A DNA stretch of 64,000 bases, from NCBI RefSeq assembly GCF_025699125.1, contig NZ_JAILWC010000003.1, positions 1-64,000 on the forward strand, written 5' to 3'. This DNA is from Nitrosopumilus sp. (GTDB lineage: Archaea; Thermoproteota; Nitrososphaeria; Nitrososphaerales; Nitrosopumilaceae). Of this stretch, positions 44,227 through 47,655 are shown in pieces; the first letter of the stretch is position 1; every line of letters starts with the position of its first letter. The notes beneath the pieces are model-generated. The model was not told the DNA's origin. It saw nothing but the letters and a program-made list of their open reading frames with translations, and ran no database searches. Made by a program: the position numbers and the translations under genes.

Positions 44227-45582
44227 ATGGCTAGAAATAAGAAAAAAATTGTTGTTTTAGGTGGAGGTTTTGCAGGTTTAGAATGTACTATAAAATTAGA
44301 GAAATTTTTTAAGAATGATTTAGAAATTGAGATTGTTTTAGTTAGTGAGGATAATTTCTTATTATTTACTCCAATGTTGCCACAGGTAGCATCTGGGATG
44401 ATTGAAACTAGACATATTGTAATGCCAATTAGAACAATTACTAAAAAAGCGGTTTTTTATGAAGGCAGAGTCAAAAATATTGATCCGTATGGAAAGATTG
44501 TCAATTTATGGGGAAGTAGAGATAAAAGAGGAATTTCGATTCATTACGATTTTTTAGTTGTTGCATTAGGAAGTGAAACCAATTTTTTTGGAATGAGTGA
44601 TCTTGAAAAGAATGCTTACCAGATGAAGACACTCAATGATGCAGTTCTTGTAAGAAATAGGATTATTGATATGTTAGAGCAGGCTGAAAATGAAACTAAC
44701 CCAATTTTAAAGAAAAGTTTTCTAACATTTGTGATTGTAGGCGGAGGTTTTGCAGGAATAGAAACTGCAGGAGAATTGATGGATTTTCTTTTGGATGTGA
44801 GAAAATATTATCCAAATATCAAACGAGAGGATATTCGCGTAATTGTTTTAGAAGCACTGCAAAATATTTTACCTGGTTTCAGTGAAAGTCTTGCAAAGTT
44901 TGCCCAAGAAAAATTATCTGGGCGTGGAATCGAGATTAAGCTTCAAACAGCTGTTACGAGTTTTAATGGAGATGAAGTGATGATTAAGAGATCAGATATT
45001 GATAAAGATGCAATTGATGATTCAATGGTAAGTTCAATTCAATCAAAAACCGTAATTTGGACTGCCGGTGTTACTCCAGTTAATACAATCAAAAGATCAC
45101 TATTCAAAACAGACAAGGGAAAAATTATCGTTGATGATAATTTAGAAGTGGTCGACTTTCCAGGGGTTTTTGCAATAGGTGATTGTGCATTATTTTTAGA
45201 TCCTAAAACTCAAAGACCTTTTGCACCTACTGCTCAAATTGCAGAAGCTCAAGCAAAAGTTGCTGCAAAAAATCTTTATTCTTTGATTAAAAATAAAGAA
45301 AAAACGAAATTTGTTTATGAATCAAAAGGGCAGATGGCAATAATTGGGAAAAGAACAGGAATTGCCTCGTTTTTGGGAATGAATATTCACGGTATTGTTG
45401 CATGGCTTCTCTGGAGAAATGTTTACTTGTCAAAAATACCTACATGGGATAAGCGTTTCAGAGTATTTCTTGATTGGACAGCAGATGTTTTCTTTGATAG
45501 AGATATCTCCAGATTGAAATTCATGAGACGTGAGCCAGAAAAAGAATACAAGGTTTTGGATGAAGTAGATGATGTTTGGTAA
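44227..45582 (+). CDS. NDH-2-like FAD-dependent NADH dehydrogenase/oxidoreductase
   Basis: The 451-aa product has two Rossmann motifs: GGGFAGLECT at residues 11-20 for FAD and GGGFAGIETAGEL at about 170 for NAD(P)H. It also has FAIGDCALF and TAQIAEAQ near the C terminus, as in type II NADH dehydrogenases. A hydrophobic C-terminal segment suggests membrane attachment. It would oxidise NAD(P)H and pass electrons to quinone. Its stop codon is the insertion site of the 2-kb mobile element: the T comes from the target repeat, and the AA from the element's terminus. Confidence 0.87.
   Translation: MARNKKKIVVLGGGFAGLECTIKLEKFFKNDLEIEIVLVSEDNFLLFTPMLPQVASGMIETRHIVMPIRTITKKAVFYEGRVKNIDPYGKIVNLWGSRDKRGISIHYDFLVVALGSETNFFGMSDLEKNAYQMKTLNDAVLVRNRIIDMLEQAENETNPILKKSFLTFVIVGGGFAGIETAGELMDFLLDVRKYYPNIKREDIRVIVLEALQNILPGFSESLAKFAQEKLSGRGIEIKLQTAVTSFNGDEVMIKRSDIDKDAIDDSMVSSIQSKTVIWTAGVTPVNTIKRSLFKTDKGKIIVDDNLEVVDFPGVFAIGDCALFLDPKTQRPFAPTAQIAEAQAKVAAKNLYSLIKNKEKTKFVYESKGQMAIIGKRTGIASFLGMNIHGIVAWLLWRNVYLSKIPTWDKRFRVFLDWTADVFFDRDISRLKFMRREPEKEYKVLDEVDDVW
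45568..45580 (+). repeat. Left target-site duplication of the mobile element
   Basis: GATGATGTTTGGT, in the last codons of the NDH-2-like gene. An identical copy lies at 47643-47655 after the right terminus. Two more bases (AA) match if the terminus is counted two bases shorter. Confidence 0.85.
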
Positions 45583-45630
45583 AAATAGAATGCCCCCCTT
45601 TTACGCGTAAATTTAGACGGGACTAGAAAG
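45581..45630 (+). repeat. Left 50-bp terminal inverted repeat
   Basis: Matches the reverse complement of 47593-47642 at 49 of 50 bases (A against T at the 31st). It contains a run of six C and an ACGCGT core. Together with the right copy it defines the ends of the element. Confidence 0.92.
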
Positions 45631-45631
45631 T

Positions 45632-46150
45632 TTAGAATTTAATATTTCTAAGGCCTTCAAGAAGATTACTTAGGCCATCAATGTTACCTAAACCATATTT
45701 TGCAATTTCTTGAACGATTTCTTGTTGAGACAAATTTTTGGCATTATCAATTAATCTCTTAATCCATGAATCTGTTTTAGGATCTAATTTCTGTGCAATT
45801 TTTTCAATATTACCATTATCTATTAAACTCAAAATTGGTTTCAGCATTTTTTTTGTGTAGATTATTCCATCAGCTGTTATGTTAAATTTTTCACTTAATT
45901 CTCCTTCGGGTTTCGATCCTGCTCCTATAATATCATTCAAATTTTTAGGAACTACTTTTATCAATTCCATTTTTGTCAAATTGTATAATCCTTCAGTTAC
46001 ATCTTTTTTTCCAAAACGTTCATCCATTGCAGTAATGCAACAATCTTTGAGAATTTGCATTGCTGATCTACTTTCTTCTTTATCATGTAGATAGATCAAT
46101 GCCCATCTTTGGAATGATGATAACAAGTGAGGTGGATCAGCATAAACCAA
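45632..46150 (-). CDS. Winged-helix-like protein inside the mobile element
   Basis: The 172-aa product contains FQRWALIYLHDKEESRSAMQILKD as a likely helix-turn-helix start, YNLTKMELIKVVPKN as the recognition helix and NITADGIIYTKKML as the wing, followed by a helical tail. It could bind DNA and control the element or the KAP NTPase gene just upstream of it. It begins only 1 bp inside the left terminus, so its stop lies at the very edge of the element. The frame is open over its whole length. Confidence 0.65.
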   Translation of the reverse strand: MVYADPPHLLSSFQRWALIYLHDKEESRSAMQILKDCCITAMDERFGKKDVTEGLYNLTKMELIKVVPKNLNDIIGAGSKPEGELSEKFNITADGIIYTKKMLKPILSLIDNGNIEKIAQKLDPKTDSWIKRLIDNAKNLSQQEIVQEIAKYGLGNIDGLSNLLEGLRNIKF

Positions 46151-46251
46151 TTAGTTCAGATCAAGAAATGCACTACTTGTTAATTAATTAGATCAAAAAA
46201 CCTTAATCATAAAATTTCACAATATATGAATTCTGTAATAATTTCAAGAAA

Positions 46252-46905
46252 TCATCTCATAGTTTCATTAGTTTCAGAACATAAGATATCAAAATCCGTT
46301 TCTATACTGTCTAATGAAATTTTCAGTTCTCCAGGTAAATTATCTACCAAAGTCACAAATTCGGTAAGAGTTGTTGCTTCAGGCTCTTGATAACTAAATT
46401 TTGAAGAAAATCTTTTCAATTCACCATACATTGTATTAGAATCTCCTCTAACTTGGGTGTAAAATGAAAGTCCATTAAGATTTTTCTTTATAATACGATG
46501 AAAATGAACTGCTTGATCAATTGAAAGTATTTCTTCTAATAATGTCCACAATATAGCTGAAATCTCAGAATGTTTGCTTGATAATAACAAAGAGCGATAA
46601 CTTACATTATTTAGCATTCTTTTAATTCCTCTTGGATTTGTTGGTCCAAATCTAGACATCATATGAAGAAGAATTTGGGGCATATTGGGTACTATTGTTT
46701 TAGTAAAATCCACAATCAAAGCTTGGGAAGGAACAGGAATGGCAATTCTAACTTGGAATATTTTTTCAAGATAATCACGTCCTTCTTTTTGCGTATTTGG
46801 ATCTATTCCATATTTTTTGTACCAAGCATGTTGAAGGCGCTTAAAATCAACGGCTGCTATGAATACAGTATTTTCCACATCAAGAAATAATTTCATCATT
46901 GCCAC
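46252..46905 (-). pseudogene. C-terminal fragment of a KAP-family P-loop NTPase
   Basis: The 217-aa frame opens with FLDVENTVFIAAVDFKRLQHAWYKKYG and then GRDYLEKIFQVRIAIPVPS. In intact KAP NTPases this stretch follows Walker B directly and lies in the middle of the protein. Walker A, Walker B and the membrane helices expected before it are missing, so the gene has lost its N-terminal half. The sequence upstream of the break is a different gene, a Cas1-like fragment in another frame, which shows a fusion by internal deletion. Confidence 0.72.
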
Positions 46906-47104
46906 AAATCACAATTCTAGAGTATGGGACGGTTACAGGAATGAATTTTTCGGTTTCCTGTTTTTTGGTAAAGACGTCAATTCCATTTTTCAAGATCAGT
47001 TTCTGTCCTGAAATGGAAACACCGCATCCATACCCTGATAGCACCTTGATGTCATAGTGATTGTTTTTTCCACGCAATGTCATTTCCATTTTCTCCATTT
47101 GCAA
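46880..47104 (-). pseudogene. N-terminal fragment of a Cas1-like integrase (casposase-like)
   Basis: The 74-aa frame ends in PYSRIVICGNDEIIS, preceded by VLSGYGCGVSISGQKLILKNG. A beta-rich start with this kind of PY-x-x-IVI-x-G motif is how Cas1-family proteins begin, usually followed by a Y-I-S-x-E-A helix and a large helical catalytic domain. Here the frame stops right after IIS and runs into the KAP fragment. No catalytic residues remain. Start at 47104 or at the ATG six codons later. The Cas1 assignment is by eye and should be checked. Confidence 0.55.
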
Positions 47105-47212
47105 AATGAAAATGGTTCACGTATGGTATGATGACAGAGTTTCATTTTTCTGACTTTGTGCCCATACTGCGACCATTTTGCCGTCATTTGTGGGAAAAGA
47201 TGTTCATTTTTC

Positions 47213-47241
47213 ATTTTTCCACGCTCACAAAAGTGGAAAAT
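47213..47241. promoter_or_regulatory. Inverted repeat upstream of the Cas1-like fragment
   Basis: ATTTTTCCAC (47213-47222) and GTGGAAAAT (47233-47241) pair over 9 bp with a 10-nt loop. It lies in the 163-bp gap between the two outer minus-strand frames. The gap has several near-copies of a TTCATTTT motif and may hold a promoter. Confidence 0.35.
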
Positions 47242-47267
47242 CCATTCCCACACAACCACTCATTTTC

Positions 47268-47531
47268 TTACAAGTCCATGTTGCAGTTCATGCAATACTT
47301 TTGACCATCAGGAAGTGTGTCTATCATTTTCTTTGGATGCTTACATTTTGGAACAAGTTCTGCCCTGATCTTCTGCAGATTGGAAATTACAGTTTCATCA
47401 TAAGTTAGAATTGCTTTTGCAACATCTTCAACTTCGGTTTTGTAATTCCAATTCTTTTTGAAGTGCTCCATTGCTTGTTTTCTTTGGTCTATCCACCAAT
47501 CAAGCATCTTGATTGCTTTTTTGACTGTCAT
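47268..47531 (-). CDS. Small zinc-finger protein at the right end of the element
   Basis: The 87-aa product is a helical domain (KKAIKMLDWWIDQRKQAMEHFKKN) followed by a C-terminal C...H...CMNC finger (KCKHPKK...YCMNC). It starts 62 bp inside the right terminus, the usual place for a small regulator of a mobile element. The frame is complete. No specific family is recognised. Confidence 0.65.
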   Translation of the reverse strand: MTVKKAIKMLDWWIDQRKQAMEHFKKNWNYKTEVEDVAKAILTYDETVISNLQKIRAELVPKCKHPKKMIDTLPDGQKYCMNCNMDL

Positions 47532-47592
47532 TGATTGGTATTGATCAAAAACAAGATCTTAAGCAAATCCCAAACAATAACCCGTAGCTATA

Positions 47593-47642
47593 CTTTCTAG
47601 TCCCGTCTAAAATTACGCGTAAAAGGGGGGCATTCTATTTTT
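47593..47642 (-). repeat. Right 50-bp terminal inverted repeat
   Basis: Reverse complement of 45581-45630 except one base. Ends at the direct repeat 47643-47655. Confidence 0.92.
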
Positions 47643-47655
47643 GATGATGTTTGGT
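47643..47655 (+). repeat. Right target-site duplication
   Basis: GATGATGTTTGGT, identical to 45568-45580. It is followed by AAT, so before insertion the NDH-2-like gene would also have ended in TAA here. Confidence 0.85.

Follow-up and report, generated by a model that had tools for sequence, protein, structure and literature searches.

A casposon-like deletion derivative at the 3′ end of an NDH-2 gene in Nitrosopumilus

Introduction

Casposons are transposons that rely on a Cas1 integrase, the casposase. The published family-1 casposons of Thaumarchaeota (such as NitAR1-C1, NitAR2-C1 and NitNF5-C1/C2) combine Cas1 with a protein-primed-type PolB. Their common target is EF-2, and a PurD-type gene is the target in one case (PMC4046053, PMC6563490). 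One euryarchaeal casposon, MetMah-C1, is known to encode a KAP ATPase (PMC4046053). Casposases also move artificial mini-casposons, which are flanked by terminal inverted repeats (TIRs), both in vitro, as with Aciduliprofundum boonei (PMC9939771), and in vivo, as with Methanosarcina mazei (PMC10359463). Among other transposons, MITEs and internally deleted forms such as Ds and the KP type of P element arise by internal deletion, keep their ends and need a helper enzyme.

Herein we describe a 2,062-bp insertion, with inverted ends and flanking direct repeats, at positions 45581-47642 of a 64,000-nucleotide stretch of Nitrosopumilus sp. DNA (the window). It has in common with family-1 casposons the presence of TIRs, target duplication, the 3′ ends of genes as targets, and tandem insertion. 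However, it lacks both defining genes (a complete cas1 and a family B DNA polymerase gene), and its target is the 3′ end of an NDH-2 gene. Like the artificial mini-casposons, it is DNA between casposon ends that would rely on an outside casposase, but those constructs are engineered and make 14-15 bp duplications, whereas this element is natural, belongs to another casposon family and has a 13-bp duplication. Unlike that of Ds and KP elements, its helper would be a Cas1-type integrase rather than a DDE transposase. We found no description of natural non-autonomous, MITE or cargo casposons in the literature searched, and a prior mention in Krupovic et al. 2016 is not excluded.

Results and Discussion

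Boundaries, target and empty site

The features of the locus are as follows (window coordinates, strand).

44227..45582, plus: host target gene, NDH-2-type NADH dehydrogenase (Pyr_redox_2 and NDH2_C); insertion site at its 3′ end, TAA stop rebuilt by the element
45568..45580, no strand: 13-bp target-site duplication, left copy (GATGATGTTTGGT); spans the final host-gene codons and the T of the stop
45581..45635, plus: left TIR (AAAAATAGAATGCCCCCCTTTTACGCGTAAATTTAGACGG...), with the AA that finishes the host TAA stop at its tip
45632..46150, minus: intact 172-aa ORF, helix-rich, HTH-like, no family name; homologues in genomes G188 (52%) and G190 (49%)
46252..46902, minus: KAP-family P-loop NTPase, C-terminal fragment that has lost the Walker A and B regions; Pfam KAP_NTPase E 4e-10
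46899..46903, no strand: point at which the deletion joins the cas1 stump to the KAP fragment (GGCA/GCAA overlap)
46901..47083, minus: cas1 (casposase) stump reduced to codons 1-61, without the C-terminal catalytic part
47268..47531, minus: 87-aa ORF, zinc-ribbon-like (weak); homologues in regions that hold other casposon ends (loci L114, L144 and L043)
47588..47642, minus: right TIR, 96% identical to the left one
47643..47655, no strand: right copy of the 13-bp target-site duplication, GATGATGTTTGGT

The inverted ends (45581-45635 and 47588-47642) are 55 nt long and 96% complementary, with two mismatches, one of which lies within the first 50 nt. A preliminary description, made from sequence alone, had reported 50-bp inverted ends with a single mismatch, which holds for the first 50 nt, and direct repeats of 13-15 bp, which hold as a 13-bp duplication. 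This duplication is exact (13/13 bp) at the NDH-2 3′ end, and the 15-bp version arises because element tip and host sequence both continue with AA. The duplication ends on the T of the host stop codon, and the AA of the element tip restores TAA. In G176, the closest sister genome, whose flank is 98% identical, the NDH-2 site is uninterrupted; when the flanks of the element are joined, they match this empty site at 96.5% over 198 bp, with one copy of the 13-mer. The duplication and the empty site are thus both shown.

The element is single copy in its genome, no second copy of exactly this element was found, and it has no match in plasmid sequences. Its exact tip pattern occurs in only one record of a genome-contig collection (Nitrosopumilus sp. 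LS_AOA) and has no match in a viral-contig collection. The earlier claim that the element moved recently is not proven for this copy, given that there is no second copy and that the comparison with the closest sister genome shows only that the insertion is lacking there. That it is non-autonomous held, but the suggestion that it is MITE-like had to be corrected. At 2,062 bp, with ORFs and in single copy, it does not meet the MITE criteria (short, non-coding, with many near-identical copies), and it is instead the product of an internal deletion. Miniature elements of down to 351 bp do exist in relatives.

Insertions that rebuild the stop codon of an NDH-2 gene are found in the window and in three relatives (G095, G234 and G237). 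Further targets treated in this manner are EF-2, an isopropylmalate/isocitrate dehydrogenase-family gene, GMP synthase, PurD and 5-formyltetrahydrofolate cyclo-ligase. EF-2 and PurD-type genes are already known as casposon targets (PMC6563490). The other four, including NDH-2, are not named in the relevant passages of the family-1 casposon literature (PMC4046053, PMC6563490).

An internal deletion joins cas1 to a KAP gene

The ORF at 46880-47104 (minus strand, 74 aa) matches residues 1-61 of the casposase encoded by a complete casposon resident in the same genome (44% identity, E 1e-18 in direct comparison), and it is 56% identical over 63 aa to the casposase of G083. Scans of this ORF against Pfam, NCBIfam and PADLOC gave no Cas1 match. 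This missing profile match is misleading, and the direct comparison with the resident casposase is decisive. The Cas1 homology ends at GGC (46903-46901), and the KAP reading frame starts there, just past the KAP Walker B region. Because the cas1 homology stops where the KAP frame begins, with both on the minus strand, the element is an internal deletion that has left cas1 5′ sequence fused to the 3′ portion of a KAP gene. This anatomy and its junction are plainly visible in the DNA. A nearly invariant Trp of Cas1 is changed in the stump, which fits loss of function.

The KAP fragment is 34-41% identical to its homologues, whose open frames are mostly 390-410 aa. We checked KAP and HTH homologues for a surviving parent, an autonomous casposon that carries this KAP gene, and none was found between recognisable casposon ends. 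The element contains no complete integrase or polymerase, and no PolB similarity either. An AlphaFold model of the 172-aa HTH-like ORF (pLDDT 52) is too poor to use. Thus, among the interior features named in the preliminary description, the Cas1-like fragment that ties the element to casposons, the KAP remnant and the absence of a complete integrase or polymerase all held, and the winged helix and zinc finger both remain weak.

Casposon ends and complete relatives across Nitrosopumilaceae

Both the tip AAAAATAGAATGCCCCCC and an inner block, TTTACGCGTAAA...GACGG, recur in relatives. An end model built from 24 ends and searched against 250 genomes of the family has matches in 133 of them at E 0.05, many of which are weak. 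In the regions retrieved, we paired facing ends and required at least 12 matching bases among the 13 or 14 flanking ones. This rule is passed by 36 of 184 facing end pairs at the true offset and by none of the 184 at any of four shifted offsets. Overlapping combinations in tandem arrays, where one 13-bp copy lies between neighbouring elements, are counted among the 36. Because paired ends with 12-14 bp duplications occur in many relatives and never at shifted offsets, the ends and repeats of the window element are not due to chance. Sampling began from window-like ends and is not exhaustive, and elements larger than 20 kb or split between contigs were missed.

We recovered 30 intact elements across Nitrosopumilaceae: 14 with Cas1 and a polymerase, one with Cas1 and no polymerase (G089), and 15 with neither in full. 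The first group (4.6-18.5 kb) has a full, compact Cas1, a protein-primed-type PolB, the same tips, and 13-14 bp duplications; the window ends align with complete elements of this kind within the genus. One such family-1 casposon resides in the genome of the window (C4:186666-198050; 11,385 bp, 13/13 duplication), and its casposase (C4:187538-188539) is intact. The termini of the window element are 91% identical to those of G083, among the closest, and G083 is also the closest autonomous lineage by Cas1. The termini of the resident casposon are 76% identical to those of the window element. However, its own two ends differ by 24% and resemble each other no more than they resemble the window's ends, so it is plausible, in the absence of assay data, that the resident casposase could use them.

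These relatives bear on a rival reading in which the element belongs, as a MITE or cargo element, to an unrelated transposase (DDE or other) and its Cas1 similarity is coincidental. The silence of the Cas1 profiles speaks for this reading. Against it stand the strength of the direct match to the resident casposase and the position and orientation of the stump, which are those of cas1 in complete casposons with the same tips. The preliminary description had named two outcomes that would refute it, namely same-termini relatives with another integrase and a lack of Cas1 similarity in the fragment. Both checks were run: the full-length relatives encode Cas1 casposases and protein-primed-type PolB, and Cas1 similarity was found by direct protein comparison. 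The unrelated-transposase reading is refuted by these full-length relatives and is all but excluded. That the element is a casposon by origin and non-autonomous is shown by its sequence, with very high confidence.

Other loci in the same genome also carry casposon features. At C4:109190-114820 (L039), a 403-aa Cas1, a 910-aa PolB-like protein, a small HNH-like protein and an HTH-like protein lie together. No ends were found there with the family-1 end model, and the locus is possibly a family-2-like casposon in a genome that also has a family-1 casposon. Over 69 bp, a casposon end at C1:608688-608729 (L089) matches the resident casposon's right end at 97%; no partner was found for this tip, which might be a solo end or a decayed tandem copy. 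A solo end with a perfect tip, likewise without a detected partner, lies at C1:400058-400093 (L046) by a decayed EF-2-like C-terminus (NKFIYKE*), near a 3-hydroxyacyl-CoA dehydrogenase gene.

Cas1-less elements and truncated cas1 copies

The 15 intact elements without a complete Cas1 or polymerase, counted after manual removal of overlapping combinations in tandem arrays, range from 351 bp to 5.1 kb and have both ends and a duplication. The smallest (L157:3807-4157, G009) has casposon ends and an exact 13-bp duplication and is a true miniature casposon. Others carry cargo: a sodium:sulfate/dicarboxylate symporter (G160), SRA-HNH, NERD and TIR-domain proteins (G138), DoxX with an ArsR-type regulator (G098), a Dps-type ferritin with a CtaA-like protein (G114), and an MscS-like channel (G116). 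A cas1 5′ stump is kept in four of the 15, the window element and three independent deletion derivatives: G114 (codons 1-141, frameshifted), G187 (1-30) and G132 (1-76, joined to polymerase 395-607). One element (G116) keeps a polymerase stump only. The G132 locus (L100:6480-10191) holds two tandem Cas1-less casposons with one common 13-bp target, the first of which joins cas1 codon 76 to polymerase codon 395.

Some of these elements are closely related to one another. Those of G130 and G131 have 1,399 bp in common at 95%, including one end, with different duplications and targets. Those of G116 and G132 have 1,043 bp in common at 98.8% from the tip inward and occupy different sites; the G132 counterpart has no Cas1 in the 9 kb examined. 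The recurrence of Cas1-less derivatives at different sites is our main evidence that movement of deleted forms seems to happen among these elements. No Cas1 was detected in the draft genomes that carry the elements of G009, G130, G131, G160 and G187, and therefore a helper is not always present at the time of sampling.

Truncated cas1 copies, most of them near a casposon end, occur at loci including L150, L159, L161, L176, L178, L180 and L185. In the regions retrieved there are 23 such copies. Each of them begins in the start codon region, and in 19 the break lies before codon 90 (under a uniform, independent model that ignores shared ancestry and detection limits, p is about 7e-10). This pattern is the argument for another rival, in which the kept 5′ part of cas1 is functional, either as a dominant-negative casposase fragment or as a cis-acting transposition sequence. 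However, stumps are absent from most paired Cas1-less elements, that of the window element no longer has the nearly invariant Trp, and that of G114 is frameshifted. Furthermore, several elements have an upstream gene that runs into the start of cas1, and therefore keeping this gene would leave a cas1 stump as a by-product. We consider a functional stump very unlikely.

Origin and mobility of the element

The best explanation, which we regard as very likely, is that the element is a natural, internally deleted family-1 casposon moved by a casposase supplied in trans, with the trans-mobilisation being inferred. The parent would have had the order TIR, small gene, cas1, further sequence, KAP ATPase, HTH-like gene, TIR. 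It would have lost a stretch of undetermined size, from cas1 codon 61 to about the middle of the KAP gene, while keeping its ends. A casposase acting in trans may then have recognised these ends, its source being the complete family-1 casposon in the same genome or other lineages common in relatives. This enzyme would cut the NDH-2 3′ end with a 13-bp stagger and insert the element, and repair would give the 13-bp duplication, with the tip AA restoring the host TAA.

The movement of the deleted form, and the identity of the casposase that moved it, are inferences. In the absence of a second copy, it remains possible that the window copy was deleted in situ after insertion of a full casposon. 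In this rival, a full casposon entered the NDH-2 gene, then lost its middle, and never moved as a 2-kb unit. Its single copy number, the KAP and cas1 stumps, which are ordinary deletion products, and the frequency of solo or decayed ends, including those at C1:400058-400093 and C1:608688-608729 in the same genome, all favor in-situ decay. The near-identical ends, the exact duplication and the Cas1-less derivatives at different sites in relatives speak against it. In-situ decay is compatible with a casposon origin, and thus its standing overlaps with that of the best explanation; we judge it less likely than not. By a narrow margin, we favor the inference that the 2-kb form itself moved. A further objection to the trans-mobilised deletion derivative is that the resident casposase is of a different lineage (44% in the stump region, termini 76%), and its use of the window ends, though plausible, is unproven. 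The draft genomes with Cas1-less elements but no detected Cas1, and the failure to find an autonomous casposon with this KAP gene, also speak against it.

Implications

A bolder reading would hold, as one joint claim, that marine ammonia-oxidising archaea have a non-autonomous casposon layer in which minis and cargo elements shuttle host-useful genes (the transporter, the Dps-type ferritin, defence-like nucleases) between the 3′ ends of conserved genes via borrowed Cas1 integrases, with the cas1 5′ stump serving as a cis signal or inhibitor. We regard this combination as unlikely. The elements do offer ready natural substrates in the form of ends, duplications, targets and stumps, and they suggest that casposons carry ordinary genes from one ammonia-oxidising archaeon to another. 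CRISPR adaptation has been proposed to stem from casposons, a scenario that includes a step in which a Cas1 integrase works on DNA lacking the gene for it. That Cas1-type integrases already serve foreign DNA in trans is what natural non-autonomous casposons would show.
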